Positions 159 to 30,043 of a stretch of 32,652 nucleotides of DNA are shown here, in pieces. A program made the position numbers and the translations under genes. Source of the DNA: Deltaproteobacteria bacterium (lineage in GTDB: Bacteria > Bacillota > Desulfotomaculia > Desulfotomaculales > JAGUVT01); assembly GCA_020062745.1 (NCBI GenBank), contig JAGUVT010000047.1, positions 1 to 32,652 of the forward strand, given 5' to 3'. Below the pieces are notes generated by a model. It saw only the letters and a program-made list of their open reading frames with translations. It was not told the DNA's origin and ran no database searches. Every line of letters begins with the position of its first letter. Within the stretch, counting starts at the first letter, position 1.

Positions 159-1115
159 TTACTCAGGAAGTCCCAGGATGGAAGTTAACTCCCGTCGAAA
201 ACTTTCATACTCCTGACTTTCTTCAATAAGCAAAGTGCTGATCGCGTAAAACCGGTTTGTACTCGGCGAGCGCATCCGGGCCGTTTGTTCATCTACTGGA
301 ACACCTATGATTGTCCAGCGCAGGACGCCACTTGCGGATAGCTTTAAATGGCTTTTCTCCGCTTCGCCTAATCTGTTGTGAATATTGGAAGGGTCGCTGC
401 CGCCTTTAACCTCTATGGCCAACAAGTGCCGGTAGCGGTTTGCGGAACACTCACTAACCAATATGTCTGGGTCAGATCCAAAACGTATTTTTACCTGCCG
501 GCCTGCTGCGTTGTTGAATTCGATTTCGTTCTCCCTTTCCTGGAAACTATCAGGGTTTTTGGGTTTAACAATTTTTTCAATTAAGTCCCGGATAACGGCT
601 ACCGCTTTTTGGCCGACAATAACCCGATAACTACCGTCAAATTGCGCGCCCAGAGTTAGCAAGGTGAGTTCATGGAAAAAGTCTTCAGTAATATTATCCC
701 TATTGCTGATAACGCTCAATAACTGTTCTCCCGCTTTAATCAGAGCAACGCAAAGGTTCCGGATTTCGCTTTCCGAAATAGTATTGCTTTTTCCTTTCTC
801 AATTTCAACCCACTTACCCAGGCCTTTTCTGCCATACTCTTTTTGCGAGATTCCCAGGATAAGTCGGTAGTATCCGGAAATAGTCAGCTTTTCTTTAATC
901 AGGCAGGGCACGGCAAAAAGGACTTCCCCGCGCAGGCCAAACGCTCCCAACTTATTAAGTGCATTCTTGTTTACTAAAGTATGAAGATCATGATCAATTG
1001 TTTGAATACCTACTCTTTCTATTGCCCCTCTTAAAGCGTCCCGCAAGACTTTTCCGCGCTCAGTTCTCAAACGGGTAATAATCCATAATTGCTTTGTGGG
1101 AGTGAAAAGTTCCAC
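159..1115 (-). CDS. XcyI-family type II restriction endonuclease (predicted CCCGGG)
   Basis: A 318-aa protein matching the XcyI restriction enzyme family in length and in the N-terminal block around residues 57-95 (LGAFGLRGEVLF, then GYYRLILGISQKEY). A PD-(D/E)XK catalytic core is visible: SDPD at 214-217 and EVKGG at 235-239. The family cuts CCCGGG, so that specificity is inferred. The start is a GTG at 1113-1115, preceded by GGAGG inside the end of the methylase gene; only three bases separate the methylase stop from this start, so the two genes are one operon with modification first. That order protects the host on entry. CCCGGG sites occur several times in this window (for example near 2465 and 5093), so methylation would be needed if the enzyme is active. 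The catalytic residues and length look intact. Confidence 0.85.
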   Translation of the reverse strand: MELFTPTKQLWIITRLRTERGKVLRDALRGAIERVGIQTIDHDLHTLVNKNALNKLGAFGLRGEVLFAVPCLIKEKLTISGYYRLILGISQKEYGRKGLGKWVEIEKGKSNTISESEIRNLCVALIKAGEQLLSVISNRDNITEDFFHELTLLTLGAQFDGSYRVIVGQKAVAVIRDLIEKIVKPKNPDSFQERENEIEFNNAAGRQVKIRFGSDPDILVSECSANRYRHLLAIEVKGGSDPSNIHNRLGEAEKSHLKLSASGVLRWTIIGVPVDEQTARMRSPSTNRFYAISTLLIEESQEYESFRRELTSILGLPE

Positions 1116-1118
1116 AAG

Positions 1119-2129
1119 TTAAGCCTCCGTTTTCAGGATTGTAGCATAAGGAGCCAGCCTTTTTTCGGCCAACTCGCAATATTCAGGGTGTAGTTCAATG
1201 CCGATAAAATTCCTTTTCTGTTGTAGGGCTACTAATCCTGTGGTACCCGAGCCTAAAAAAGGATCAAGTATGAAATCTCCTGGTTTCGAACCGGCCAGGA
1301 TACAAGGCAGGATGAGTGACGGAGGAAAGGTTGCGAAATGTGCTTGCGGATAGGGTTCGGTATTTACGACCCAAACCGACCGTTTGTTCCGGCGACCTTT
1401 GCCAGATACTGCCGGCTCAAGAATAGCCTTGTAATCATAGTAATAGTGTTCGCTTTTGGTGAATAAAAAGACGTATTCATGAGCAATGGTCGGCCTATCT
1501 TTAACGCTTTCTGGCAGAATATTCGGCTTATACCAAACAATATCCGCCCTTAAATACCAGCCGTCCTCCTGTAAAAGAAAAGCCAGACGCCACGGCAAAC
1601 CCAGGAGGTCTTTTGGTTTTAATCCTGCCGGTGTAGGAGGCCGGAAGGGCAACCCGCGTACCACGTGACCGTTGTCGGTTTTTCTGTCAGGGGCACGGTA
1701 AGTCCTTCCCCCGCTTGTATAGCCATCGCCTATATTTAACCAGAAAGTGCCGTCGGTTTTCAGGACTCTCTTAACATCCCGGAATACCTTAACCAACCTG
1801 TTAAGATACTCAGAGATGTCCATTTCCGTGCCGATCTGATTTTGGATGCCGTAATCGCGAAGTCCCCAATAGGGTGGTGAAGTAACACATGTCTGAATAG
1901 TTTCTTCGGGTAACTGTCTTAGTGCAGTTAAGGCGTTTCCTGTTATTATGTACGATGTTTCTTTGTTAACCGTAGAAAGCAATGATGGGGGACCAACAAC
2001 GATGGTGTTCTCTCTCTGAGTATCTTTAGTGTGACATAAAGGATCGAGTGAAATTGGTACAACTCCTTCCAAATCGTTCACTCCCGGCTTGGTGTTAATA
2101 TATCCATTCGACATTTGCTTTGAGTTCAC
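1119..2129 (-). CDS. N4-cytosine DNA methyltransferase, beta class (XcyI/Cfr9I type)
   Basis: A 336-aa S-adenosylmethionine-dependent DNA methylase. The catalytic motif IV is TSPPYW at 83-88 and the SAM-binding motif I is DPFLGSGTTG at 289-298. Motif IV before motif I defines the beta group, and SPPY is typical of N4-methylcytosine enzymes. Partner of the downstream XcyI-type nuclease, so it probably modifies a cytosine within CCCGGG (inference). The start shown is a GTG overlapping a G-rich run; an internal ATG at 2112-2114 has that G-rich run about 11 bases upstream and is an equally good start. The first 55 residues precede the recognisable fold and are poorly conserved in character. It is transcribed divergently from the replication gene at 2309. 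Confidence 0.88.
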   Translation of the reverse strand: MNSKQMSNGYINTKPGVNDLEGVVPISLDPLCHTKDTQRENTIVVGPPSLLSTVNKETSYIITGNALTALRQLPEETIQTCVTSPPYWGLRDYGIQNQIGTEMDISEYLNRLVKVFRDVKRVLKTDGTFWLNIGDGYTSGGRTYRAPDRKTDNGHVVRGLPFRPPTPAGLKPKDLLGLPWRLAFLLQEDGWYLRADIVWYKPNILPESVKDRPTIAHEYVFLFTKSEHYYYDYKAILEPAVSGKGRRNKRSVWVVNTEPYPQAHFATFPPSLILPCILAGSKPGDFILDPFLGSGTTGLVALQQKRNFIGIELHPEYCELAEKRLAPYATILKTEA

Positions 2130-2308: not shown

Positions 2309-3211
2309 GTGAACGAAAAAACTCTGGTGATCCTCGATCCTGTCTTGCGGCGCGGTTTCACGTCGATACCGAATTGCGTCCTGTTTGCTCCGGACCTGTC
2401 GATGGCGGCAAAGTGCCTCTACACCATCCTGCTGTCCTTTGCCTGGCAGGAAGATGAATGCTGGCCCGGGCAGGATCGGCTGGCTGGAGCCGCCGGCTGC
2501 CATGTCAATACGGTAGAAAAATACCTGAAGGAACTGAGAGACTACGGCCTCATTTCATGGAAACGCCGGGGTCTGAACAGGCCCAACATTTATTTCGTAC
2601 ATAACCTGGCGGATGTGGAAAAACTGCGGTTTCATGAATCGAAAGAAGATGCTTGCCGGGGGAAAAACACGGGATTACCGGGTGACACCGGGGAAAATGC
2701 AGCGGTCGGAGGCCTCAAAGCCTTGAAAACAGCGGATTCACAAGGGCGTGTGAATCCGGAATCACAAGGGTGTGTGAATCAAGAATCACAAGCCCTTGTG
2801 GATAAAGAATACTCAGTAGAATATAATGTTGTTGTTGAGGACAACCAGCCTCAGGAAATGCCAGGCGGGTGTTCCCGTGAATCAGGTCGCGATGGTAAAG
2901 CCGGGAAAGTTGTTCTTGCGTTGCAGGCTGCGGTAAAAAAGGCGTGTGGTGCGGAAATCCCGGGGGAATTGCTTAACGATCTCCTCGGGAAGTATTCAGA
3001 GAAAAAAATAAAAGAAAAAATTGCCCTGATGGGGACGGGAACAATAGAAATGAAAAACGTTCCCGGCTGGCTGGTGGCTGCGTTGAAAGAAGACTATAAA
3101 CATGTACCCGGCAGGGGCAGGGATCCGGCAACGGTTAAAAAGAGGAAGATGCCATATCAACCGGGAATAAGCAAAGAGAAAGAGCTTATCAGGTCGCTGT
3201 ATCTTTCGTGA
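2309..3211 (+). CDS. Replication initiator-like HTH/DnaD-type protein
   Basis: A 300-aa protein with an N-terminal winged-helix domain of the kind found in plasmid and phage initiators (about residues 15-100: recognisable blocks are LSMAAKCLYTILLSFAW and the HTH GCHVNTVEKYLKELRDYGLI). The middle, about 120-175, is low-complexity and encoded by tandem DNA repeats. The C-terminal part, about 195-270, with VPGWLVAALKEDY, resembles the DnaD-like tail of Firmicute initiators. Start is GTG at 2309 with GGGAGGG six bases upstream. The architecture (HTH, variable repeat-bearing linker, C-terminal domain) recalls RepA_N-type initiators whose origin lies within the gene. Role in replication of the element is inferred from this, not shown. 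A transcriptional regulator with a DnaD tail is the alternative. Confidence 0.65.
   Translation: MNEKTLVILDPVLRRGFTSIPNCVLFAPDLSMAAKCLYTILLSFAWQEDECWPGQDRLAGAAGCHVNTVEKYLKELRDYGLISWKRRGLNRPNIYFVHNLADVEKLRFHESKEDACRGKNTGLPGDTGENAAVGGLKALKTADSQGRVNPESQGCVNQESQALVDKEYSVEYNVVVEDNQPQEMPGGCSRESGRDGKAGKVVLALQAAVKKACGAEIPGELLNDLLGKYSEKKIKEKIALMGTGTIEMKNVPGWLVAALKEDYKHVPGRGRDPATVKKRKMPYQPGISKEKELIRSLYLS
2735..2806 (+). repeat. Three 24-bp tandem repeats within the initiator gene (candidate iterons)
   Basis: Units run 2735-2758, 2759-2782 and 2783-2806, in register with the reading frame, so the protein shows an eight-residue repeat (DSQGRVNP, ESQGCVNQ, ESQALVDK). Unit 1 contains the inverted repeat GATTCACA/TGTGAATC. 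Units 1 and 2 differ at few bases; unit 3 diverges at its end into a perfect DnaA box. AT-rich sequence follows at about 2802-2840. Confidence 0.8.
2797..2805 (-). promoter_or_regulatory. Consensus DnaA box TTATCCACA
   Basis: The minus strand reads TTATCCACA, the exact consensus DnaA-binding 9-mer, at the end of the third tandem repeat and next to an AT-rich stretch. Together with the repeats this is the usual composition of an origin. A single 9-mer can occur by chance, so the weight comes from its position. Confidence 0.55.
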
Positions 3212-3715: not shown

Positions 3716-4015
3716 ATGCCGGAAATAATTCAACAGGTGCAAAAAAGAATGCTAATTAGTCTGGCCCGGATTGCCAAGGTAATGAACATTCAGGAAGGCG
3801 ATCGTGTTGCGCTTGAGGTGCGGGATGGGGGTGTTTTTATCAGGCCTGTCTCATGGCACGACAAGAGCCAGGAATACTTTTGGTCCGACGAGTGGCAGCA
3901 AAAGGTAAAGCGAAGCGCAGAAGCAATAAAAGAGGGGAAGGTAAAAATATTCAGTAGCACAGCCGACCTTTTAAAAGAACTGGGTGAAGAAGATGCCGGC
4001 GATCATTCTAACTGA
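3716..4015 (+). CDS. AbrB/MazE-type antitoxin
   Basis: A 99-aa protein. Residues about 8-48 form a swapped-hairpin AbrB-type DNA-binding domain (RMLISLARIAKVMNIQEGD, then VALEVRDGGVFIRP). The C-terminal half (about 55-95, including YFWSDEWQQKV and SSTADLLKELGEE) is the helical segment that antitoxins use to wrap their toxin. ATG start with GGGAGGT eight bases upstream. The gene overlaps the toxin by 23 bases, so translation is coupled, and the pair has its own promoter at 3651. By analogy with this class the antitoxin probably represses that promoter alone or with the toxin. Confidence 0.75.
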   Translation: MPEIIQQVQKRMLISLARIAKVMNIQEGDRVALEVRDGGVFIRPVSWHDKSQEYFWSDEWQQKVKRSAEAIKEGKVKIFSSTADLLKELGEEDAGDHSN

Positions 4016-4238
4016 GCCATTCGAGATAGACTTTTGGAAATTGTCCAAAACAGAGCAGAAACAATCAAGGAAAACGTTGCGTTTTCTGGCGGACAACCCG
4101 AAACACCCCTCCCTTCAGGTTCACCGGGTCAGAGGGACATCTTTCTGGGAAGCTTATGTCAACATGGACATACGAATAATTTTCGAGCAAAATAGCGACA
4201 CCCTTATTCTTTATGCTATCGGCACCATGATATTCTAA
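3993..4238 (+). CDS. RelE/ParE-family toxin with frameshifted C-terminus
   Basis: An 81-aa member of the RelE/ParE superfamily, following its antitoxin. Family landmarks are a short helical N-terminus (FWKLSKTEQKQSRKTLRFL), PSLQVHRVRGTSFWEAYVNMDIRIIFE and the strand DTLILYAIGT. The ATG at 3993 has GGGTGA eight bases upstream; the GTG at 3984 overlaps that site and is less likely. The usual ending of these toxins is a strand followed by GTHDIL or a close variant. Here the frame reads GTMIF and stops. Inserting a single C after 4226 restores GTHDILRK and a stop at 4244-4246, so one base of a CCC run seems lost. The toxin may be attenuated or dead, or the sequence may hold an error. Confidence 0.75.
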   Translation: MPAIILTEPFEIDFWKLSKTEQKQSRKTLRFLADNPKHPSLQVHRVRGTSFWEAYVNMDIRIIFEQNSDTLILYAIGTMIF

Positions 4239-4360: not shown

Positions 4361-5683
4361 GTGCCCGATGGGCCAGCTTTTGTGGATCTTTTTTGCGGAG
4401 CGGGTGGGCTTTCGCTGGGTTTTCTTCTGGAAGGTTTCAACTGCCTTCTTGCAGTTGATAATGATCCTTCTGCAGTCGCCTGTTATAATACTAATCTTCG
4501 TGGTTCTTTTGATAGAGGAGCTTTTCTTTATGATCTATCCAGGCTGGATAATCACGAAGCAATTGTTTCTTTTCTGGAATTGTATGCACCGGGTGTGAGA
4601 AGATGCGATGTGGTTGTTGGTGGACCGCCGTGTCAGGGTTTTTCTGTTGTTGGGAAAAACAAGATACAGGCGCTTGTTCAGTCCGATAATAATCTTGAGA
4701 TGTACTGGAAAAAGCGTAACGAGGAGCGTTGCATGCTTTATGAGTCTTTTGCTATGTTTATAGAGGTTCTCGAACCGAGGTGGTTTTTGTTTGAAAATGT
4801 ACCGGCGATCATGGGCCATGATATATTCCCGTCCATAATCGATCGTTTTTCCAGTCTTCTTACTCCTGACGGCAGGAAACTGGACTACAGGCTGGTTTGC
4901 AGTAAATATATTGCTTCCAGCTATGGGGTTCCTCAGAATAGAAAACGCTTTATCATGATCGGGCGTCGAGAGGATATCAAAGGCGCTGGAGAATGGAAAC
5001 CTCCAGAGACAGGGATGCCAGTCACTGTACTCGAAGCGTTGGGTGACCTTCCACCGGTCAGAGAGGGGCACAGAGAAAGAGTGATGTTTTACCCGGGATC
5101 GCCAGCAGGCAATTATCAGCACAGGATGCGCGAGGGTATGGTGGGGTTTGAAAAAGGAATTGTGTACGACCATATTTGCAGAACCCATAATAAGGATGAT
5201 GTTGCTTTGTTTGCCCGCATGTCTCCTGGTTCCAGGTTTGCTGATTCCGAGGTCCAGAGGGCAGTCAGGGAGATCAATCCGGAACACAAGCTTATCAAAT
5301 ATTCAGTAGAAAAGTTCAGGGACAAACTGCACAGGTTACGTCCTGATGAGCCGGCGTGGACGGTAACTGCGCACCTTCAAAAGGACTGTTACAAGTTCAT
5401 ACATTACAACCAGCCCAGAACAGTTACAGTGCGCGAGGCTGCCCGCCTCCAGAGTTTCCCGGATCGTTTTGTGTTTACCGGGATTTCAATGATCACATCA
5501 TTTCGTCTTACTGGTAACGCTGTTCCGCCGTTGATGGCTGCGGCTTTTGCCAGGGGCATACTTGATGCGGATGTTTGTCTGAACATGCTGGCGTCGCGGA
5601 GGAGTTTTCAGGATATCTGGAACGAACCTGCAGTGACGGAGAACTGGTCTGGCGAACAGATCAGGCAGGGCGTTTCAGGGTGA
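4361..5683 (+). CDS. C5-cytosine DNA methyltransferase
   Basis: A 440-aa m5C methylase with all main motifs in order: motif I DLFCGAGG (9-16), catalytic PCQ loop GGPPCQGFS (87-95, nucleophile Cys91), ENV (145-147), motif VIII YGVPQNRKRF (188-197), a target-recognition region of about 210-330, and motifs IX-X (TVREAARLQSFP and GNAVPPLMA) near the C-terminus. It uses SAM to methylate carbon 5 of a cytosine within a site that cannot be read from the sequence. GTG start at 4361 with AAGGTGAGGTG seven bases upstream. It is first of four genes that overlap or nearly touch. No restriction nuclease follows it; instead a mismatch glycosylase and two signalling proteins do, which is unusual for a methylase operon. 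Confidence 0.92.
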   Translation: MPDGPAFVDLFCGAGGLSLGFLLEGFNCLLAVDNDPSAVACYNTNLRGSFDRGAFLYDLSRLDNHEAIVSFLELYAPGVRRCDVVVGGPPCQGFSVVGKNKIQALVQSDNNLEMYWKKRNEERCMLYESFAMFIEVLEPRWFLFENVPAIMGHDIFPSIIDRFSSLLTPDGRKLDYRLVCSKYIASSYGVPQNRKRFIMIGRREDIKGAGEWKPPETGMPVTVLEALGDLPPVREGHRERVMFYPGSPAGNYQHRMREGMVGFEKGIVYDHICRTHNKDDVALFARMSPGSRFADSEVQRAVREINPEHKLIKYSVEKFRDKLHRLRPDEPAWTVTAHLQKDCYKFIHYNQPRTVTVREAARLQSFPDRFVFTGISMITSFRLTGNAVPPLMAAAFARGILDADVCLNMLASRRSFQDIWNEPAVTENWSGEQIRQGVSG

Positions 5684-5693
5684 GGTGGCCGGT

Positions 5694-6413
5694 ATGTGTC
5701 CCGCAGATGACATGAGCCACAGCGGCATTTTTGTCTCTGAAGGGGACGTAATGGCTTTTCGCAGAACGATAATTGCCTGGGGGAGGGAGCATTTTCGTCC
5801 GTTTCCCTGGAGATTTACTGCTGATCCGTACCGTATTCTGATGGCCGAGGTGATGTTGCATCGTACCAGGGCAGCGCAGGTGGTACCGGTATATAGTAAA
5901 TTTGTGGGGAGCTATCCGGACGTTCCGGCCCTGGCTCGTGCAACCGGAGAAGAATTATATAAGACACTGTACCCGCTGGGCTTGCGCTGGCGGGTTGCCC
6001 TGATTTATGAAATGGCAACTCATTTGGCTGGTCGGTTTAATGGCAGTGTGCCAGTTGAAAAGGAGGCGTTGCTCTCACTTCCTGGCATAAGCGACTACAT
6101 TGCCAGTGCCGTGAGATGTTTTGCCTGGGGTTATCCTGATTTTCTTGCAGATACCAATACAGTGCGTGTTGTCGGACGCATGTTTGGGTTAAAGATCAGG
6201 GATTCATCACGGCGCAATTCCCGTTTTCGAAACATACTGGCTGCACTTGTGGATATGGAGTATCCCCGATTATATAATTATGCTTTGCTGGACGTGGCGG
6301 ACAGAATCTGTGTAAAGAAAAGGCCGCCAGAATGCAATGTTTGTCCGGTAGCGAAATGGTGTATTCAGGCAGGAGGGATACCGATACATGGAAAAGGGAT
6401 CTGCGAAGACTGA
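5694..6413 (+). CDS. Mig-like T/G mismatch DNA glycosylase (HhH-GPD, Fe-S)
   Basis: A DNA glycosylase of the endonuclease III/MutY superfamily. It has an N-terminal FPWR block (40-43, numbering from the GTG at 5685), the MLHRTRAAQVVPVY helix (57-70), the helix-hairpin-helix LPGISDYIASAV (132-143), catalytic Asp156, and four cluster cysteines (209, 217, 220, 226) for a 4Fe-4S cluster. Tyr138 sits where endonuclease III has Lys and MutY has Ser. Tyr there, 18 residues before the Asp, is the arrangement of the thermophile T/G glycosylase Mig. Role inferred: removal of thymine arising when the 5-methylcytosine made by the preceding methylase deaminates. Starts at GTG 5685, ATG 5694 and ATG 5751 (with AAGGGGA upstream) are all possible. 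It begins a few bases after the methylase stop and overlaps the next gene by 26 bases. Confidence 0.85.
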   Translation: MCPADDMSHSGIFVSEGDVMAFRRTIIAWGREHFRPFPWRFTADPYRILMAEVMLHRTRAAQVVPVYSKFVGSYPDVPALARATGEELYKTLYPLGLRWRVALIYEMATHLAGRFNGSVPVEKEALLSLPGISDYIASAVRCFAWGYPDFLADTNTVRVVGRMFGLKIRDSSRRNSRFRNILAALVDMEYPRLYNYALLDVADRICVKKRPPECNVCPVAKWCIQAGGIPIHGKGICED

Positions 6414-8616
6414 TGTGAAACCTGTCAGGCAACCAGGAGAGCAGTTGTCTGGCAGAGGGGTGTTGCGTCCCAGGGCGCGGGTTCTGCGCGTCCTGGGTGA
6501 TGAACTGATTAGTAGCGATGCTGTTGCTGTTGTCGAACTTATCAAAAATGCGTATGATGCTGATGCTACGCGGGTTTTTATTCGTTTTCTCGGTCCTCTG
6601 GAAGCTGGTCATGGTGGTGTCGAGATCATAGATAACGGTCACGGCATGTCTCTTGATACCATTAAGAGAGCCTGGATGGAACCAGCCACACCTTTCAGGA
6701 AGCGTCGAACCCGTAGTGAGCAGCGTTGTCGCCGTGTTCTGGGAGAAAAAGGTATTGGACGTTTTGCGTCATCACGTCTTGCGGATATCCTGGAAATTGT
6801 GACGCGCCGTACTGGCATGGAGCGTGAGGTAAGAGTTCTTTTTGACTGGAGGCAGTTCGATAATGAAGAGAGATACCTGGATGAAGTTGAAGTTATCTGG
6901 GAGGAAACAGAGCCAACAGAGATTTGTCCCGGTGGAACCATAGAAGCCCTGTGGGAAAATGATATATGTCCTCCGCAGGAGGAGGAACTGCTTCATGGGA
7001 CTGTTATGCGTATGCGGGGCTTGCGGTCCAAGTGGGGAGAAAATCAGTTTAAAGTCCTGCGTAGTGCTCTGTCCAGGCTTGTATCGCCATTCTGGGGCAG
7101 GGATGCAGGGAGTGAAGAATTTCAGATCCGTCTGGAAGTGCCCGAGTCTTTTATAAAATTCTCTGATGTTGTTGAGCCGCCGGAGATAATAAAAAGACCG
7201 CACTATATGATTGCGGGAAATGTTGACAGGAATGGACGTTGCAGACTGGCCATCAAATTGAGGGGTGATGGAGGAGAGGAACAGATAGAGAAACAGATAG
7301 AGAAACAGCTAACGTTTCCGGAAGGTCGTAAGCCACAGTGCGGGCCTTTCTATATTGAACTGCGTGTCTGGGATCGTGATGTGGAATCCCTGAATAAACT
7401 CGCTAGCCAGTACGGTTCTTCTGTTTCTTCCATCCGTGAAGATCTGGATAATGCAGCTGGCATCAGTATTTATCGCGATGGCTTCAGAGTTCTACCATAT
7501 GGTGAGTTATATAACGACTGGCTACGTCTTGACCTGCGCAGCCGCCTTAATCCAACACTCCGGCTGGCCAATAATCAGGTGATTGGTTATGTTTTGATTT
7601 CTGCTGATTCTAACCCGCTCTTGCGCGATCAGAGCAACCGGGAAGGTCTTATTGAGGGAGCAGCCCTGGATGATCTCCGCGAGCTTGTTCAAGGGGTACT
7701 GAACGAGATTGAAGTAAGGCGGTACAGTGCGCGTCCTCATACAGGAAAATCAAAAGTACAACGTGACGGGCTGTTTTCCAGGTTAGACCTGGGTGATGTC
7801 CAGAGCTTGATAGAAAAGCGGTACCCCAAAGATACCGAACTTATTGAGATGCTGGCCAGTAAAGAGAAAGACCTGAAACATCAGGTAAAGGAGGTCCAGG
7901 AGATACTGGCTCGTTACCATCGTCTTGCTACGCTGGGACAGTTAATTGATACTGTGCTTCATGAAGGGCGAACACCTGTTGCGAAGATTGGAAATGAAGC
8001 GCAACTGGGGCTGCGGGATATTGACCGTGGGGGAACTGAGGAGAAACTTTTTCTCAGCCTCTTTCGTCAGCGGTTTGGTATGATAAAAACACAGTCCGGT
8101 GTGTTGGCAACTGTTTTTCGTCGAATAGAGCCTTTTGGCGGTCGGAAAAGAGGCAAGCCAGTTATTTCCCGCCTGGAGCAGGTAATCGCTGATGGTTTTG
8201 CTGTGCTGAATGCGAAGATTAAAAGAAGTGGGGTTCGTGTTAGCCTGCCGGAGACCAGTACGCAGGTTGCTGTGGATCCGGCGGAGATACAGGAAGTAAT
8301 CGTTAACCTCCTGCAGAACAGCCTTTACTGGTTACACCATGTTCCTGAGGAACGCCGTAAAATGGTAGTAATGGTTTCCCGGAAAGAGGCGGATGAGGTT
8401 GAAATCCTGTTCTCTGACAGTGGTCCCGGTGTTGCTCCTCAGTTTAGAGAACGTATTTTTGAACCGTACTTTTCAACCAAGCCTGATGGTATTGGACTGG
8501 GGTTAACAATTGCAGGCGAGATTGTAAAGGAATATTACAATGGAGAACTGGAACTCGTTGATGGGGGGCTACTTCCTGGTGCCACATTTAGAATAATCCT
8601 TCGCAGGAGGGTCTAA
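6388..8616 (+). CDS. Dual GHKL protein: Hsp90/MutL-like ATPase fused to histidine kinase
   Basis: A 742-aa soluble protein with two GHKL ATP-binding folds. The N-terminal one is of Hsp90/MutL/MORC type: N-box ELIKNAYDADA (50-60, Asn54), DNGHGM (82-87), GEKGIGRF (119-126). A long middle region (about 200-480) follows, then a coiled coil near 485-510. The C-terminal half is a sensor kinase: a phosphoacceptor-like helix with His525 in LHEGRTP, N-box VIVNLLQNS (637-645), DSGPG (677-681), F-box and GIGLGL (701-706). No membrane segment or PAS domain is visible, so the N-terminal ATPase is the likely sensor. ATG start with GGAGGGA upstream, inside the glycosylase gene; the response regulator starts two bases after its stop. 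Inference: an ATP-driven clamp that detects DNA state or invasion and signals by phosphotransfer. Confidence 0.85.
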   Translation: MEKGSAKTDVKPVRQPGEQLSGRGVLRPRARVLRVLGDELISSDAVAVVELIKNAYDADATRVFIRFLGPLEAGHGGVEIIDNGHGMSLDTIKRAWMEPATPFRKRRTRSEQRCRRVLGEKGIGRFASSRLADILEIVTRRTGMEREVRVLFDWRQFDNEERYLDEVEVIWEETEPTEICPGGTIEALWENDICPPQEEELLHGTVMRMRGLRSKWGENQFKVLRSALSRLVSPFWGRDAGSEEFQIRLEVPESFIKFSDVVEPPEIIKRPHYMIAGNVDRNGRCRLAIKLRGDGGEEQIEKQIEKQLTFPEGRKPQCGPFYIELRVWDRDVESLNKLASQYGSSVSSIREDLDNAAGISIYRDGFRVLPYGELYNDWLRLDLRSRLNPTLRLANNQVIGYVLISADSNPLLRDQSNREGLIEGAALDDLRELVQGVLNEIEVRRYSARPHTGKSKVQRDGLFSRLDLGDVQSLIEKRYPKDTELIEMLASKEKDLKHQVKEVQEILARYHRLATLGQLIDTVLHEGRTPVAKIGNEAQLGLRDIDRGGTEEKLFLSLFRQRFGMIKTQSGVLATVFRRIEPFGGRKRGKPVISRLEQVIADGFAVLNAKIKRSGVRVSLPETSTQVAVDPAEIQEVIVNLLQNSLYWLHHVPEERRKMVVMVSRKEADEVEILFSDSGPGVAPQFRERIFEPYFSTKPDGIGLGLTIAGEIVKEYYNGELELVDGGLLPGATFRIILRRRV
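7281..7308 (+). repeat. 12-bp tandem duplication within the dual-GHKL gene
   Basis: The 12-mer ACAGATAGAGAA occurs twice head to tail, followed by ACAG, giving QIEKQIEKQ in the protein at about 299-307. It lies in the middle region and probably arose by slippage; the frame is kept. Confidence 0.7.
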
Positions 8617-8617
8617 T

Positions 8618-9814
8618 ATGGAGGAAAGTGTTGTCTGGCAGGTACTGCTGGTTGATGATGACGAGGACTTTTGTTATCAGGCAAAAGATTTTCTGGAGGG
8701 TGAGACTGTTTCTGATTCCAGTGGCCGTTTGCAGGTCGAGACTATTAGTAGCTTTGATGATGCTATTAAGGCTATAGAAAGGTATCGTTTTGATTTGATT
8801 ATTCTGGATGTCAGACTTGGAAGCGGAAGAGTGGTTTCCTCAGAAGAGGGAGCTGGCATTCAAACTCTGGAGTCTGTTAAAAAGAGATGTTTTCTACCTG
8901 TCGTTTTTTATACCGCTGTACCTCATCTTGTCCGCGACCTGGAGAGCCCGGGGGTTCATGTGGTTGAAAAAACTCAAGGGTTGTCTTCTTTGCTTGAAAC
9001 AGTAAAAGAGGTTATTAAAAGCGGCCTTCCTCTCATCAATCGGGCGCTGATCCGACATCAGGAGAGGGTGCAGTGTAAGTATATGTGGGATTTTGTAATG
9101 AGCCGCTGGAAGGAATTCAGTACCAGTTCTGATCTCACTGCACTGGCCTATCTTCTGGCGAGACGCCTTGCACTTTCTCTCTCTGAATCAGGTATTTATG
9201 AACTTGTCAGGGATCTCGGTGGTTCTTTTGAAGATAATAGTGGTGAAGAGAAAGTTCACCCAATGCAGTATTATGTGATGCCACCATTGGAGGACAGGCA
9301 TCTCGCGGGTGACCTGTATCACGGCCAGATCGGTGAGCAAAATGGTTATTGGGTACTGCTGACTCCCACCTGCGACATATGGCAAAAGAAGGCGGAAAGG
9401 GTTTTGCTGGCCTCCTGCGATTTGCTGACGAATCAGCCAGAATACAGGGAGTGGCGTGAGGGCTTACCAGAACCGTCGAATAAGGTTAAGAAAAAATTCA
9501 TGAGGTTGCTTATCAATAATCGGGAGAGTGGTCAACCAGAACGTTACTTTTATTTGCCTGGTGTACCGTTTTTTCCAGACCTGGTTGTTGACTTTCAAAA
9601 ACTGGTTGCATGGAAATGTAACGATCTTGGTGACCTGAGGAGGCTGGCTTCACTGGACAGTCCCTTTGCCGGTGAACTTCTGGCGCGCTTTACCCGCTAC
9701 TTCGGGCGGCGTGGAGCACCTGATCTGGGTGTGGAGATGGTAATGGAACACTTGAAAAACCTGGGAACTTCTTCTTGCCCTGCTTCTGAAGTGGCTCCGG
9801 CAGGGGAAAATTAA
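8618..9814 (+). CDS. Receiver-domain protein with unrecognised C-terminal domain
   Basis: A 398-aa response regulator. Residues about 6-130 are a CheY-like receiver with the acidic pocket Asp13-15, the phosphoacceptor Asp64 in LIILDVRLG, Thr99 and Lys118. It is the natural partner of the upstream kinase. The C-terminal 260 residues have no HTH or other output domain that I know; they contain conserved-looking blocks such as WVLLTPTCDIWQKKAERVLLA (about 247-267), RYFYLPGVPFFPDLVVDF and, at the end, ARFTRYFGRRGAPDLG. The polar CD and paired basic residues could be an active site or a nucleic-acid contact, but I cannot assign it. ATG start with AGGAGGG upstream, two bases after the kinase stop. 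Last gene of the operon, facing the convergent gene at 9841. Inference: phosphorylation-controlled effector or adaptor. Confidence 0.8.
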   Translation: MEESVVWQVLLVDDDEDFCYQAKDFLEGETVSDSSGRLQVETISSFDDAIKAIERYRFDLIILDVRLGSGRVVSSEEGAGIQTLESVKKRCFLPVVFYTAVPHLVRDLESPGVHVVEKTQGLSSLLETVKEVIKSGLPLINRALIRHQERVQCKYMWDFVMSRWKEFSTSSDLTALAYLLARRLALSLSESGIYELVRDLGGSFEDNSGEEKVHPMQYYVMPPLEDRHLAGDLYHGQIGEQNGYWVLLTPTCDIWQKKAERVLLASCDLLTNQPEYREWREGLPEPSNKVKKKFMRLLINNRESGQPERYFYLPGVPFFPDLVVDFQKLVAWKCNDLGDLRRLASLDSPFAGELLARFTRYFGRRGAPDLGVEMVMEHLKNLGTSSCPASEVAPAGEN

Positions 9815-21620: not shown

Positions 21621-23291
21621 ATGATTAAGCCATATCAGCTGTGGTATGAAAGGCACCCTGAACGTTTTGAAGAGGAAGTTGCTGACATGGAAAAACGGGG
21701 CTTCGTCCTTGATGACGAAGTCCTGCAACTCCATCAGCATGTGGTGTTCACCGGTGCTTCGTCAGTAGACTATAGCAGACCGTTAGTGATTAAGTACCCT
21801 GGAGCTTTTCCATCTATGCCACCTCGTATTTTTAGCGAAACGCCGGGACGGCTTTTGCGTCGTCACCAACGTCCTGGAACATGGGAGATATGTCTATTTG
21901 GACCTGGGCAAAGGCGATGGTCTGCGGAGTTGTCGGGCTCGGTGGCCATTGACGAGGCCGAGGAAATTATCCGGTTGTTTTCGGACAAAGCGGAAGTAGT
22001 TGAGGATGAGGTGCCTGAGCCTGCTTCAGCTTTATACCATTACGCTGTAGATTCAGCCATTTTCGTGCCGCCCGAAGTGGCAACCCCTGATATCGTAGCC
22101 GCCGACGTTCCACTTATTGGGACTTTCCGTCTAAGATTTCGCAGGAGCACAAGTAACCACAGTAAAGGTTCCATCAAAGGCCGTGGAATTATATTGAGTG
22201 CTAAACTTGGCGAGTGGCATGGACAGGTCGGGGCTGCTTTTAGTAATTGGTGCTCAGGCGGACAAGAAGAAAAAGGGCCACTTGTATGGTTGCCGAAACC
22301 GTTGCCTTTCTTAGAAGGACCCAAGGACTTCAGTACGTGGCTTGATCAGCATAATTTAAAGACCAAACAGTGGATAGCATTTGTCTTTCCAGAGCAATCT
22401 GGAACCGTATTGGGGCAACGTTTTGGGTGGTTGGTGGTTCAGGCCCCTACTAGTGGCACTTTTCATTACATACGTGCATTTCCTTATCGTAGCGAAGAAC
22501 GCGTGGCTAGGATTCCTGGTCTCGGCGGTTTGGCTGGCAAAAAGGTCGTCTTCGTTGGCTGTGGAAGCATGGGTTCCAAAATTGCTGTCGCATTGGCTTC
22601 AAGTGGGATCAACCGATTTGGTTTGGTTGATTTTGATATGTTTAAACCCGAAAACTCGGTAAGGCATGAGGTAGGGGTTTGCTGTTATGGCGATCCTAAG
22701 GTTTTAGCTTTAGCAAAGCGGTTATATGAAATGAATCCTATGATTAACGTTGATAAGCTATGTATGAGAATCGGAGACCTTGATTTTTCTGCGGATGAGA
22801 ATATACTGTTTGACCTCCTTGCCGCAGCGGATTTGGTGATCGAAACCACAGGTTCTCATGGTGTCAGCCGATGGGTTAACGATATGTGTCATGACTTTGG
22901 TGTACCGTCGGTTTATGCAACTGTAACGAATGGTGCCTGGGGTGGGGAGATTGTGCGAGTAATACCTGGTAGAACTGCTTGCTGGCAATGCTGGTATGCT
23001 GAATGGGAGACTGATCGCCCCCCAGGGGCTCCTGCCCCTAAGGTCGGGATTTTCGCGCCTGGTTGTGAACAGCCTACTTTTACCGGGGCAACATATGAAA
23101 TTGGGGTTGTAGCTAACTTGGCTGCGTGGGTAGCAGTCGAAACGCTGCTTCGTGATGAATCAGGACGGAAAGATTTCCGTGGCGACTACGTCCGGTGGGT
23201 TGCGCGCACCAGTGAAGGTGTACCAGACCTCGCTCCGGCGGTTTTAGAGATTCACAAACGGCCGGGATGCCCGGTGTGTAATCCCTTATGA
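21621..23291 (+). CDS. E2-E1 fusion of a bacterial ubiquitin-like conjugation system (Cap2-like)
   Basis: A 556-aa protein. Residues about 1-125 form an E2-like domain: IKYPGAFPSMPPRIF (57-71), then WEICLFGPGQRRW with candidate thioester Cys91. After a linker domain (about 140-290), residues 300-556 are an adenylating E1/ThiF-like domain: VGCGSMGSKIA (312-322), DFD (337-339), arginine finger in ENSVRHE (Arg348), Lys360, zinc pairs CWQC (454, 457) and CPVC (550, 553), and candidate catalytic Cys482 in APGCEQPTFTGA. The layout is that of Cap2 of type II CBASS. All catalytic residues look present. ATG start six bases after the small protein and a four-base overlap with the JAB gene make one operon. 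Role inferred: activation and transfer of a protein C-terminus to a target. Confidence 0.88.
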   Translation: MIKPYQLWYERHPERFEEEVADMEKRGFVLDDEVLQLHQHVVFTGASSVDYSRPLVIKYPGAFPSMPPRIFSETPGRLLRRHQRPGTWEICLFGPGQRRWSAELSGSVAIDEAEEIIRLFSDKAEVVEDEVPEPASALYHYAVDSAIFVPPEVATPDIVAADVPLIGTFRLRFRRSTSNHSKGSIKGRGIILSAKLGEWHGQVGAAFSNWCSGGQEEKGPLVWLPKPLPFLEGPKDFSTWLDQHNLKTKQWIAFVFPEQSGTVLGQRFGWLVVQAPTSGTFHYIRAFPYRSEERVARIPGLGGLAGKKVVFVGCGSMGSKIAVALASSGINRFGLVDFDMFKPENSVRHEVGVCCYGDPKVLALAKRLYEMNPMINVDKLCMRIGDLDFSADENILFDLLAAADLVIETTGSHGVSRWVNDMCHDFGVPSVYATVTNGAWGGEIVRVIPGRTACWQCWYAEWETDRPPGAPAPKVGIFAPGCEQPTFTGATYEIGVVANLAAWVAVETLLRDESGRKDFRGDYVRWVARTSEGVPDLAPAVLEIHKRPGCPVCNPL

Positions 23292-23791
23292 TGTACCGAC
23301 ACGTTTTCATCCTTAGCGGCGCATTGGACACGATACGTCAAGAAGTGCGGCGTACACCATTTTTGAAAGAAACAGGTGGTCCGATGGTTGGTTACGTTTC
23401 CACTGACGAGGCTGTCGTTGTTACGCATGCAGCCGGTCCAGGGCCACTAGGGAAGCGAGGTTACTTCAGTGTCTTAATCGATGGCCGCTACGCCACGCAG
23501 TTTTGCAACCGGGCTGGGCAGGAGTTCAATGGCTGCTTTTACTACGTAGGAGACTGGCACTGTCATAGGGGGTGGTCATTAAAGCCTAGTCATGACGACT
23601 TGAAAGCCATGCGTGTCATGGCTGCTTATGTAGGTTGCCCAATGAAGCGCCCGATTTCGCTAATCTATCGTTATTATCCAGAGGAGTATAGGGCATACAC
23701 TTTAAACTCCGCCGGACGGCTTGAACCAACTCCAGTTAGTGAATTGGCCGAAGTTCCATATATTCTACACAGCAGAAAGCTGCTGAAATGA
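23288..23791 (+). CDS. JAB/JAMM-family isopeptidase (Cap3-like)
   Basis: A 167-aa JAB-domain metalloprotease. The complete JAMM signature is visible: Glu28 in KETGGPMVGY, then His91-x-His93 and Ser101-x-x-Asp104 in GDWHCHRGWSLKPSHDD. In ubiquitin-like operons this enzyme processes the modifier tail or removes it from targets. The ATG at 23288 overlaps the E1 stop (ATGA); an adjacent ATG at 23291 is equally possible. No membrane segment. As the small protein already ends in Gly, processing is not needed for exposure, so deconjugation is the likelier job (inference). Confidence 0.85.
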   Translation: MMYRHVFILSGALDTIRQEVRRTPFLKETGGPMVGYVSTDEAVVVTHAAGPGPLGKRGYFSVLIDGRYATQFCNRAGQEFNGCFYYVGDWHCHRGWSLKPSHDDLKAMRVMAAYVGCPMKRPISLIYRYYPEEYRAYTLNSAGRLEPTPVSELAEVPYILHSRKLLK

Positions 23792-24650: not shown

Positions 24651-26114
24651 TTGGAAGTTTGCGGTACTCGACGGATACGCACAGAAAGCAGAAAACTTCA
24701 AGTGAAGGCTGGCCTGCAAAGAATAGGGTGGAACCCAAAGGTATGCAGGGAGTGCCGAGCGTATCTGCGGCGTCCAAGAACGGAAGAAACGGCGGCAACG
24801 GGTATTCCGATTACCTGCTTTTTGAAGATTGTGGACAGGAACAACCTGAACCAAGCCTACAAGCGGGTAAAGGCCAACAGAGGCAGCCATGGCGTGGACG
24901 GAATGAAGGTAGATGAACTTCTGCCTTACCTGAAACAGCATGGCAGTGCTATCCGGCAGGCCATACTGGAAGGGAGTTACGTCCCAAACCCGGTCAGGCG
25001 AAAGGGGATTCCCAAGCCTGATGGGGGAGTTAGTCTGCTCGGTATCCCGACAGTGCTTGACAGAATGATTCAGAAGGCTATTACACAGGTGCTAACACCC
25101 ATCTTCGACCCGAAATTCTCTGAACACAGCTATGGATTCAGGCCGGGACGAAGTGCGAAAGAAGCCGTAACCCAGGCAAAAGAGTACATTCAAGAAGGTT
25201 ACAGGTGGGTGGTGGACATCGACCTTGCCCGGTATTTCGATACCGTAAATCATGACAATCTCATGAGCCTGGTGGCAAGAAAAGTAACGGACAGAAGGGT
25301 GCTTAAACTAATCCGGGCCTATCTGGAATCCGGAGTCATGGTAAATGGCGTGGTGGTGGAAGTGGATGGAGGCTGTCCTCAGGGCGGACACTAAAGCCCA
25401 CTACTAAGCAACATCATGCTGGATGAACTGGATAAGGAACTGGAAAAGCGGGGACACAAATTCTGCCGTTACGCCGATGACAGTAACATCTATTTAAGAA
25501 GTCAACGCGCCGGAGAAAGAGTTATGCAAAGCATAACGGAGTATATTGAGGGCGCACTGAAGATGAGAGTCAACAGGGAGAAAAGCGCAGCGGACAGGCC
25601 TTGGAGGCGAAAGTTTCTGGGCTTTTCCTTCTACTTCAAAAAGAGTGGAGTAGGAATACGAGTCCACGCAAAACCAGTTAAGAAATTCAAGGACAAGGTG
25701 AGGCAGATTCTATCCAGAAGTAACGGCCAAAGTACGGAACAAAGGGTAGAAGCTCTAAACCGCTGTATCATTGGCTGGGTTAACTACTTCGGGCTGGCAG
25801 ACATGAAAGGCCTAGCCCGTGACCTGGACGAGTGGATTATGCGAAGAACTCGCATGTGTATCTGGAAACAATGGCCGAAAATTAAAACGAGGCACAGTAA
25901 CCTGGTAAAACTGGGAATAGACAATGGCAAAGCATGGGAATTCGCCAACACAAGAAAAGGCTACTGGAGAGTATCCAGAAGCCCTATTCTAAACCGCACC
26001 TTAACCAATGAATATCTTGCAAAGCTGGGTTTTGTAAGCCTAACACAAAGATACTCGAAGTGTGCTCATTCTGACGAACCGCCGTATGCCAGACCGGCTT
26101 GTACGGTGGTGTAG
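24651..26114 (+). pseudogene. Group II intron reverse transcriptase/maturase, interrupted by TAA
   Basis: TTG start at 24651 with AGGAGG four bases upstream, giving 487 codons in one frame with a single stop, TAA at 25392-25394. Reverse transcriptase blocks: VKANRGSHGVDGM, IPKPDGGVSLLGIPTVLDRMIQ, FSEHSYGFRPGRSA, VVDIDLARYFDTVNHD, and, after the stop, RYADDSNIYLRS with the YADD active site; then the maturase X domain (KFLGFSF, INGWVNYF-like GWVNYFGLADM). The stop lies in the conserved QGGPLSPLLSN block: the DNA reads CAC TAA where CCA CTA is expected. A lost C and a gained A seven bases or fewer apart would explain it with the frame kept. The protein is cut before the catalytic YADD, so the intron probably cannot move by itself. 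Confidence 0.85.
26078..26110 (+). ncRNA. Intron domain V catalytic hairpin
   Basis: ACCGCCGTATGCC pairs with GGCTTGTACGGTGGT around an AGACC-type loop, giving the 33-base domain V helix with the CGC catalytic triad at 26080-26082. The end of the maturase frame overlaps it, as usual for compact introns. Domain VI follows at about 26119-26150. Confidence 0.65.
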
Positions 26115-27453: not shown

Positions 27454-28215
27454 ATGCTTATCGGCATAACCTTTGTCGTCCTGGCCGTTGTTGCCGCCGT
27501 CTCGATTCCTTTTTTGAGCCGCTTCATGGAACAGCGGGCAACGGGAGGCCGGAAGAGGCGGTCCGGGCCGGACGACAGACTTAAGCGAAAGAGGAAAAAG
27601 AAAGATGATTTCAAAGAGATGTGGGACATAGAAGACATACGCCACGGCGTGATCACCCTTTCCGGGGGCCGGTACCGGGCGATCCTGCGCCTGGGCTCCG
27701 TCGACTACCACCTGATGTCCGAAGCGGAGCAGCACGGCATCGAGTCCGTTCTCATGCAGCTGGCGATGTCCTTGAATCAGCCGGTGCAGTTTCTCACCAC
27801 CACCGAGATGGTCGACGCCGTGCGCTGCATTGCGGACATCGTCTCCGGGCGGGAGGGCATGCCGGAGAAGCTTCAGGCCTACGGCTCGCAGATGGTGGAG
27901 TTCCTGTCGATGGTCATGCAGGACCGTTCCGTTCAGACCAGGCAGAGCTACGCGGTCGTCTGCTGCGATACGGCGGACGGCTTTGAGAAGGCGCGGGCGG
28001 AGCTTTACCGCCAGGCGTCCATAGTTTCCGGCGGGCTGTCCCGGGCGCAGATACCGGTTTCCATTCTCGACACCGGGGAGATAGTTGATCTCCTGCACCG
28101 GCTGCTGAACCGGTGGCGGACCGCCAGGCCGTCGGAGGCGGCCGCGGCGGGCGGGATTGAACCGTACAAGTACGGGAAGGAGGGGATACCCCTTGCTTTT
28201 CATGAATCGTCGTAA
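27454..28215 (+). CDS. VirB4 N-terminal-domain-like membrane protein
   Basis: A 253-aa protein with one N-terminal membrane helix (IGITFVVLAVVAAVSIPFL), a strongly basic stretch (about 28-55, RKRRS to KRKRKKKDD) and a soluble domain. That domain (GVITLSGGRYRAILRLGSVDYHLMSEAE, then LNQPVQFLTTTEMVD) looks like the N-terminal domain of VirB4/TraC-type ATPases, here on a separate polypeptide ahead of the ATPase gene. Inference: membrane anchor or cofactor of VirB4. AAGGGGTGA upstream of the ATG. The 3' end overlaps the VirB4 start by 23 bases. Confidence 0.65.
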   Translation: MLIGITFVVLAVVAAVSIPFLSRFMEQRATGGRKRRSGPDDRLKRKRKKKDDFKEMWDIEDIRHGVITLSGGRYRAILRLGSVDYHLMSEAEQHGIESVLMQLAMSLNQPVQFLTTTEMVDAVRCIADIVSGREGMPEKLQAYGSQMVEFLSMVMQDRSVQTRQSYAVVCCDTADGFEKARAELYRQASIVSGGLSRAQIPVSILDTGEIVDLLHRLLNRWRTARPSEAAAAGGIEPYKYGKEGIPLAFHESS

Positions 28216-30043
28216 AGAAAACAGCGGGCCGGCTTTTGAGCGCAACGTGCCTGATTTGTACGACCTGTTCCTGCCTGACGGCCTGGTCGAAGAATACGAC
28301 CGGCTCATGCTTGGCGCCTCCCGGTACTGCCGCGTCTACGCCGTGGCAGTGTACCCCCGCGAAGTTCATCCCGGCTGGCTTTCCGACAGCATACTCGCCA
28401 TCGGGGACATAGACCTTTCGGTGCATGTGCTGCCGGTTCCCGACCGGGCCGTGATCACCGCCCTGACGAAGAAGGTCACTTCAGCCTACGCCCAGAGGCT
28501 GGTCGATCAGAAGGCCGGGAACATTTTGCGCCTGCCGGAACTGGACGAAATCATCCGGGACCTGGAGGGCATCCGGGAAGTCATCCAGACCAACCGGGAC
28601 CGCATGTTCTACGTCCTGATCATGATTGCCCTTCACGCGCGCAGCGCGGAAGACCTGGACCGCCGGTCCGACCTGCTGGAGGACACCCTGGCGCGCATGG
28701 CGACCCAGGGCCGGGTGTGGATCATGCGCCAGGCGGAGGGTTTGAAGACTTCCCTGCCGTTGGGGCGGCAGCCCCGGGGAAAGTACCCTTTTCGCAATCT
28801 GACATCGGGTGCGGTGGCCGCCAACGTTCCGGTGGCCAACCCCGACCTTTCGCATCCCTCCGGGGTGTTCCTGGGACACAACTACTTTACCGGCTCGCCG
28901 ATTTTTTATGATTCCTTCATCGGACCGCCCCACCTGCTGAACCAGCACGCCGCCTGTTTCGGTATGGCCGGCTCGGGCAAAAGCGCCACCTTGAAACTGA
29001 TGCTGCTTCGTTCGGCGCTGCTGGGCGTGCGCACGGTGGTCATCGACCCGGAGCGGGAGTACATGCGGTTGACGGAACACGTCGGCGGCGCGCACATACG
29101 GCTGGTGCCCGGCGTTTCCTCCGGCATCAACCCGCTGGACGTGGAGCCGGAAGAAGACGAAGCCGGCAACAGGACGATAAACCTGTACGACAAGGTGACG
29201 GAGGTGAGGGCGATAATCCGCGCCGCGGTGCAGGACCTCGCCGGCCGGACGCTCGACCCGCAGGAATCCGCGCTGCTGGAGGAATCGTTGCGGGAAGAGT
29301 ACGCCGCCCGGAATATCGTTTGCGACCCGGAGAGCATATATGAAACCGGGAAAACGCATGCCGACGGGAGCATTTCGGTCGGCCTTACGAAAAAGGAAAT
29401 GCCCACCCTGTCCGACCTGGTGCGGCGGCTTTCTACGAAACCGGCGGCGGAGAACCTGGCGGTGATCTTGAAACCCTTCCTGCGCGGCTCCAGCATGGGC
29501 ATGTTCGACTGCCAGACCGCGGTGAACATATCGGACGCCCCGGTGGTGTGCTTCGACGTGAACGAAATCAAGGACGAGTTCACCCGCTTCTACGCCATGT
29601 TCGTGCTGCTGGGCTGGACGTGGCAGAAATTCGCCCAGAAGAACAGGGACGCCAGGAAGCGCGTGATCGTGGACGAGGCGTGGATGTTCATGAAGCACGG
29701 GGACACGGCGGTATTCCTGGAGACTCTGGCCCGGCGCGGCAGAAAACACAACACCTCGCTGGTGGTGGCCAGCCAGCACATTGAGGAGTTCCTGGGGAAA
29801 GAAGAAGGACGGGCGGTGATTTCCAACTGCGCCACCCTGATCCTCCTGCGCCAGCATCCCACCCTGGTGAACCGGGTTGTGGAGGAGTTCCACCTCTCGA
29901 AGGGATGCGCCCAGATGCTGGAGACGTTCGCTCCCGGCGAATGCCTGGTTTCTTTAAACGGCAGCACCGTTGCGGTGCGCGTCACCCCTGCGCCCTTTGA
30001 GTGGCCGCTGGTGAGCACCACGGCCGGGGAGGTACTGACATGA
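28193..30043 (+). CDS. virB4: VirB4-like conjugation ATPase
   Basis: A 616-aa ATPase that powers the type IV secretion channel. Walker A is GMAGSGKS (257-264), Walker B is VIVDEAW (491-497), preceded by FDVNEIKDEF and followed by LARRGRKHNTSLVVASQHIEEFL, a typical VirB4 sensor segment. The N-terminal domain (LYDLFLP to about 200) is short, in keeping with a partner protein encoded just upstream. I place the start at TTG 28193, nine bases after AAGGAGG; ATG 28202 is farther than usual, and an earlier GTG at 28157 lies before that site. It overlaps the next gene by ATGA. All motifs intact. Confidence 0.9.
   Translation: MLFMNRRKENSGPAFERNVPDLYDLFLPDGLVEEYDRLMLGASRYCRVYAVAVYPREVHPGWLSDSILAIGDIDLSVHVLPVPDRAVITALTKKVTSAYAQRLVDQKAGNILRLPELDEIIRDLEGIREVIQTNRDRMFYVLIMIALHARSAEDLDRRSDLLEDTLARMATQGRVWIMRQAEGLKTSLPLGRQPRGKYPFRNLTSGAVAANVPVANPDLSHPSGVFLGHNYFTGSPIFYDSFIGPPHLLNQHAACFGMAGSGKSATLKLMLLRSALLGVRTVVIDPEREYMRLTEHVGGAHIRLVPGVSSGINPLDVEPEEDEAGNRTINLYDKVTEVRAIIRAAVQDLAGRTLDPQESALLEESLREEYAARNIVCDPESIYETGKTHADGSISVGLTKKEMPTLSDLVRRLSTKPAAENLAVILKPFLRGSSMGMFDCQTAVNISDAPVVCFDVNEIKDEFTRFYAMFVLLGWTWQKFAQKNRDARKRVIVDEAWMFMKHGDTAVFLETLARRGRKHNTSLVVASQHIEEFLGKEEGRAVISNCATLILLRQHPTLVNRVVEEFHLSKGCAQMLETFAPGECLVSLNGSTVAVRVTPAPFEWPLVSTTAGEVLT

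Follow-up and report, generated by a model that had tools for sequence, protein, structure and literature searches.

A candidate replication origin within the gene of an HTH_36-type, RepA_N-related initiator from a clostridial contig

Phage initiators of the Lambda O type have their replication origin within the initiator gene, with iterons lying between the two domains; the locus described here is alike in having iterons within the gene and between domains, but belongs to a different family. Its closest known system is the pPR9-type HTH_36 initiator, in which an HTH_36 N-terminal domain (NTD) is joined to a C-terminal domain (CTD) of the pSK41 type in a protein reported to replicate its plasmid; the same source describes the NTD and the origin segment as having been swapped as one block of approximately 500 bp within rep (PMC5703833). 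The RepN/oriN system of pLS32 is reported to be independent of DnaA and to need DnaD and DnaB (PMC6669920, PMC10201431), with DnaD enriched at oriN and the tested DnaA variants not recruited (PMC10201431). In Bacillus subtilis, DnaD is described as binding single-stranded DNA with at least two 5'-TnnT-3' motifs, which constitute the DnaD recognition element (PMC10201434; also treated in PMC13326638), and as docking the co-loader DnaB through its last eight residues, with W229 essential (PMC10201431, PMC13326638) and F226-Y227-N228-W229 falling within the DnaB docking site (PMC10201431).

The initiator gene and its relatives

The window, meaning the whole stretch of DNA analysed, is a complete contig of 32,652 bp from the draft assembly of a 2.69-Mb genome in 148 contigs; a check for circularity found no overlap between the contig ends. 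Genes for conjugation lie farther along it (a T4SS pilin, PrgI and a VirB4-like ATPase), hence it appears to belong to a conjugative element or plasmid. The cumulative GC skew has its minimum at 2443, where the switch in skew coincides, and is thereby confounded, with a change of gene orientation. The features relevant to the initiator are the following.

159-2129, minus strand: XcyI-type restriction endonuclease (1e-136), accompanied by an N6/N4 methyltransferase; orientation divergent from that of the initiator
2309-3211, plus strand: initiator gene, 300 aa, GTG start (HTH_36 PF13730, 6e-13; phrog_270, replication initiation, 4.5e-15; phrog_7882, DnaD-like loader, 1e-9; AF2 model)
2354-2662, plus strand: NTD, a winged helix of RepA_N/DnaD type presumed to bind the iterons, residues 16-118 (4pql, 2vn2, hhalign)
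2732-2755, plus strand: iteron 1, inverted repeat with 7/7 scored pairs
2756-2779, plus strand: iteron 2, inverted repeat with 6/7 pairs
2780-2803, plus strand: iteron 3, inverted repeat with 5/7 pairs
2797-2805, minus strand: perfect DnaA box TTATCCACA, probably incidental and not conserved in relatives
2804-2818, plus strand: 15-bp box AAAGAATACTCAGTA, conserved among relatives, which have one to three copies and read it in more than one frame
2822-2836, plus strand: TnnT track TAT AAT GTT GTT GTT, five T-ending codons, resembling a DnaD recognition element
2897-3091, plus strand: helical CTD, residues 197-261, without a clear match in the PDB
3176-3208, plus strand: C-terminal tail EKELIRSLYLS, resembling the host DnaD tail EKALIRKLYLS

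The protein is thus laid out as a winged-helix NTD, a disordered linker whose coding sequence holds the putative origin, a helical CTD and a DnaD-like C-terminal tail; its match to Phage_rep_O in the Pfam search is sub-threshold only (0.035). The model of the NTD superposes on the RepA NTD of the pSK41 type (4pql; Z 9.8, 99 aligned residues, 26% identity), scores Z 9.7-9.8 across 99 residues for 4pql, 5kbj and 4pt7 alike, and superposes on the NTD of DnaD (2vn2) at Z 8.4. By hhalign it reaches P 98 with RepA_N proteins and P 96 with the DnaD NTD, and its sequence profile matches that of RepA-type NTDs at an E value of about 1e-3. As fold superposition and sequence profiles agree, the NTD is a distant relative of RepA_N, classed by Pfam as HTH_36, the family (PF13730) being found in all 11 of 11 homologues as well as in the window protein.

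A preliminary description of this DNA had taken the RepA_N plasmids of Firmicutes as its model. The kinship holds for the fold of the NTD, and the central position of the repeats would fit the layout of pSK41 and of RepN/oriN of pLS32, in which a repeat-bearing origin occupies the centre of rep, but the protein itself lies outside the Pfam RepA_N family: PF06970 has no match at E<=1 in the window protein and is absent among the 25 of 27 families listed for 11 homologues. Two further differences from these plasmids are a repeat unit mostly of 24 rather than 23 bp and a tail motif of its own. The likeness to pPR9, judged from its published description, consists in the HTH_36 NTD and the modular initiator; the differences are the host group (clostridia of the Desulfotomaculum/Pelotomaculum/Moorella type), the context of a conjugative element, and other CTDs with another tail.

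A homologue of the initiator is present in 35 of 150 related genomes, and a search with a profile of 11 members found one in 40 of the 113 genomes of the class; the named hosts, across 22 loci, include Desulfocucumis, Desulfallas, Desulfotruncus, Desulfoscipio, Pelotomaculum and Moorella. A search of a viral collection gave two loci, and plasmid and phage records gave four matches each, none covering 80%. Among the loci inspected, a coupling protein of the VirD4/TraG type follows the initiator in four (L086, L091, L092 and L094) and a topoisomerase in L090, with an actin-like gene nearby in L090 and L112. Forty-nine non-redundant ORFs were kept; the repeat analysis used the 25 close ones, that of the window among them, which had an A1 E value below 1e-40 and a recognisable HTH end.

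Inverted repeats in the linker

The three in-frame 24-bp repeats that the preliminary description had placed at 2735-2806 are present at 2732-2803, the same array shifted in phase by 3, and they do lie in the linker of the initiator, in a part predicted to be disordered. Units 1 and 2 share 21 of 24 bases, units 2 and 3 share 17, and units 1 and 3 share 16; the array is the top-scoring lag-24 triplet of the whole window (39/48, the runner-up elsewhere having 33), although a direct-repeat search recovers only units 1 and 2, plus an inverted repeat of 81%. At one mismatch or fewer, the only matches to the iteron core pattern in its own genome are these three units and a single one on C47, with no further copies on the window contig. 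The AT-rich DNA said to follow the repeats is a weak feature: 2789-2828 has 65% A+T against about half across the gene, and the 40-mer richest in A+T within the gene lies elsewhere, at 2989-3028 (72%).

Tandem repeats beyond a codon-shuffle null are found in the linker of 24 of the 25 close relatives, their sequences differing from one relative to another; hence the proposed check for relatives without repeats, once run, leaves the suggestion of an origin standing. A lag of 24 ranks first in 19 of the 25 and is outranked only by a 15-bp repeat in four (L106, L107, L126 and L127), one linker (L102) has a lag of 23 with a period that runs out of frame, and L010 is the sole case with no linker repeats. 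Scored over seven symmetrical base pairs per unit, 423 of 504 pairs across 72 units from 23 genes form inverted repeats. Synonymous recoding gives about half this symmetry, with p<=0.0025 in 22 of the 23 genes and p 0.07 in the exception, L087; for the window the units have 18 of 21 symmetrical pairs, where 9.4 are expected. These counts, and the helix co-variation described below, leave out L010 and L102 as well as the earliest units of L106; the units of the window, L108, L109, L107 and L126 were picked by hand, one automatic L126 unit being replaced.

The repeats also encode an eight-residue peptide repeat, as had been observed (SQGRVNPE, SQGCVNQE and SQALVDKE), but the accompanying idea that one sequence serves both as DNA and as peptide repeat fares poorly. 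The 23-bp period of L102 keeps the DNA repeat and loses the peptide repeat, so that the latter appears to be a by-product of the former. A repeat maintained at the level of the peptide was rejected on the same out-of-frame period and on the excess of symmetry over synonymous recoding.

The half-sites of the inverted repeats change together with the recognition helix of the NTD. Helices of the form CHxN(T/S) are paired with CACA..TGTG (the window, L108, L111, L112 and L113), those of CTDR/CTER type with CGGAA..TTCCG, CSVK with GGAA..TTCC (L122), and ISTR or ISIR with CGACA..TGTCG (L087 and L124). Across the 23 genes, half-site distance correlates with recognition-helix distance at r 0.75, compared with r 0.11 for the rest of the NTD, and the partial correlation of helix and half-site is 0.76 (permutation p 0.0002). 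This forms a natural series that allows specificity to be deduced and put to the test.

Inverted repeats would also suit the dimers of a repressor, and the sites might be an operator only, setting copy number or mediating autorepression, with replication starting elsewhere. A small ORF encoding only the NTD immediately precedes the initiator gene, where a repressor gene might be, in L110 (7920-8270), L109 (7878-8282) and L114 (7941-8270), its product being possibly a competitor for the iterons; none lies upstream of the window initiator. However, the repeats are situated approximately 420 bp inside the gene, away from the promoter, with no such sites elsewhere in the contig, at the same place as the origin that PMC5703833 reports as proven in pSK41, and an operator would leave the 15-bp box and the track that follow unexplained. 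We regard a purely regulatory function as quite unlikely. Because the repeats are conserved, symmetrical and track the recognition helix, we read them instead as putative iterons for their own initiator, in an origin within rep. The candidate origin that had been proposed inside the initiator gene is well supported by the repeats of the 24 linkers, by symmetry beyond the synonymous expectation and by helix tracking, and we give a probability of about 0.78 to an origin running from 2732 to about 2836 and bound by the initiator itself.

Linker repeats of 23 bp and/or 15 bp were also observed in RepA_N genes of other families (L131, L143, L135, L136 and L137), and the linker of L135 carries TGTTGTTGTTGT; the layout may be general beyond this family.

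DnaA, DnaD and helicase loading

The perfect DnaA box into which the third repeat was said to run is indeed present at 2797-2805 on the minus strand, but only two of the 25 linkers, those of the window and L108, have a box within one mismatch, and the conserved boxes looked for as the mark of a DnaA-dependent origin were not found. In both genes the box arises almost automatically from the iteron half-site TGTG and the next conserved codons. Were host DnaA to bind here and open the DNA beyond, the perfect consensus adjoining the track would be accounted for, and the order of box and then trinucleotide track does resemble the basal unwinding layout of B. subtilis. Set against its near absence from the other linkers, its derivation from iteron and codons, and the reported ability of RepN/oriN to work without DnaA (PMC6669920, PMC10201431), such an origin is very improbable, and the box is, judging from its distribution, probably incidental. 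A second perfect DnaA box at 11933 (minus strand) has no obvious origin context.

AAAGAATACTCAGTA and its variants follow the iterons in relatives, L110, L109 and L114 using another reading frame, and after this 15-bp box most relatives have AATAAT..GTTGTTGTT. In the window the sense strand of the track has T at every third base, and six T..T pairs fall within 2816-2840, the B. subtilis element having at least two on one strand. Runs of three or more valines occur in 33 of the 49 ORFs; within them 111 of 115 codons are GTT, against 252 of 826 valine codons elsewhere in the same ORFs, and AAT accounts for 46 of the 47 asparagine codons immediately upstream against 420 of 769, although, as the genes are related and not independent, these pooled counts overstate significance. 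A per-gene test on the longest run of T-ending codons is weak for many genes and finds the window not unusual (p 0.20), so the argument for the track draws on pooled codon usage and on the change of frame.

This bears on whether the track is instead a feature of the protein, NNVVVV acting as a short binding peptide and the third-position T reflecting codon habits. It reads as in-frame valine in nearly all relatives having it, but the low use of GTT for the remaining valines of the same genes argues against habit, L017 reads the same DNA word as CCCC (cysteine), and L118 and L125 keep the T-ending codons with other residues (VNNNSCI and VNNSCI, respectively); a peptide function is thus improbable.

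The candidate track resembles the DnaD recognition element of B. subtilis oriC in repeating 5'-TnnT-3' along one strand next to sites bound as double strand, as described in PMC10201434; it differs in being composed of AAT and GTT, in lying inside a coding gene, and in adjoining initiator iterons rather than DnaA boxes. In repN of pLS32 the repeats are likewise followed by the densest window of T-ending codons in the gene (12/16). Judged by eye, this arrangement holds in four of six RepA_N controls (pLS32, Monoglobus, Planococcus and Levilactobacillus); in those from Lactobacillus PV037 and L. paracasei the densest window is not after the repeats.

GTTGTTG is absent from nine of the 25 close relatives, six of which (L118, L122, L125, L106, L107 and L127) have a perfect hairpin of 12-16 bp there instead; six genes with the GTT track, that of the window among them, were checked and had no such hairpin. 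Hairpins can occur at single-strand initiation sites. The linker of L126 also has a hairpin by eye, and those of L106 and L107 have the loop TCACTTCGTTC in common and stems that differ in a paired way. The strong hairpins of the trackless relatives would fit a track that serves to keep the antisense (CAA)n strand free of structure, so that helicase or primase can land there without DnaD recognition. This is doubtful, as an enrichment of DnaD at oriN but no recruitment of the DnaA variants is reported (PMC10201431), and TnnT motifs on one strand are described as what DnaD binds (PMC10201434), yet it is the least unlikely of the alternatives considered.

The CTD yielded little: a fold search with its model (pLDDT 70.6) gave a best E of 2.6 in Foldseek and a best Z of 5.8 in VIA, which permits no conclusion on its fold, hhalign of the CTD profile against host DnaD gave P 0.4, at which any relation to the DnaD CTD is undetectable, and PF07261 (the DnaD CTD) had no match at E<=1 in the window protein. 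The tail, by contrast with the mean of other genomes, is closer to the DnaD of its own genome in 25 of 27 initiators, with 7.5 identities against 5.25 over 11 aligned positions, end residues missing from both sequences being counted as identical (permutation p 0.0002). The comparison began with 36 initiators whose genome is known, and nine were dropped because the tail pattern or DnaD was missing, which left these 27; DnaD itself is present in all 31 sampled genomes of the order. RepN of pLS32 ends in PFYNWLDN, which contains the F-Y-N-W of DnaD residues 226-229, and a PDB search with this tail did not return DnaD. On sequence comparison, a tail resembling that of DnaD is thus seen in two lineages whose tails differ, and could have arisen through recombination with dnaD, shared ancestry or selection.

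A model can be proposed in which NTD dimers would occupy the iterons, as the co-variation suggests, and the adjacent region of box and track would open. The exposed sense strand with its 5'-TnnT-3' run might then be taken by host DnaD or by the initiator, whose DnaD-like tail would dock the host helicase loader or co-loader; because of this docking, the helicase could be loaded without need for DnaA. Extending this, Firmicutes replicons with an origin in rep may share such DnaA-free loading, through a coding-embedded TnnT recognition element that recruits host DnaD and an initiator tail copied from the DnaD of its own host and docking the same loader partner, a proposal that we make tentatively and at somewhat less than even odds. 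In the literature searched, from which subscription papers were largely absent, no DnaD recognition element in a plasmid and no copied DnaD tail were found. The proposal would offer an explanation at the level of sequence for the puzzling recruitment of DnaD by oriN-type origins in the absence of DnaA, and for the finding that such plasmid initiators have CTDs whose conservation is limited to plasmids from the same genera. If true, the tail would be a determinant of host range, re-matched by mobile elements to each host, and a tail matched to its host would provide a simple, testable predictor of the host range of such elements.

Other genes on the contig

Downstream of the initiator, a pair of small ORFs at 3716-4238 resembles a MazE-like antitoxin in one member and a YafQ/ParE-like toxin in the other, each under the Pfam cut-offs. 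A cytosine methylase, an HhH-GPD glycosylase, a histidine-kinase-like protein and a response regulator follow in a row at 4361-9814, in what looks like a defence or repair island; the N-terminus of the histidine-kinase-like protein resembles BbrUII restriction enzymes. At 21621-23791, a ThiF-domain protein with an extra N-terminal part is followed by a JAB-like protein, the two forming a ubiquitin-like conjugation pair. The reverse transcriptase/maturase of a group II intron (24651-26114) is split across two ORFs and hence probably broken, and the VirB4-like ATPase, a member of the CD1110 family at 27454-30043, is split into two overlapping ORFs.
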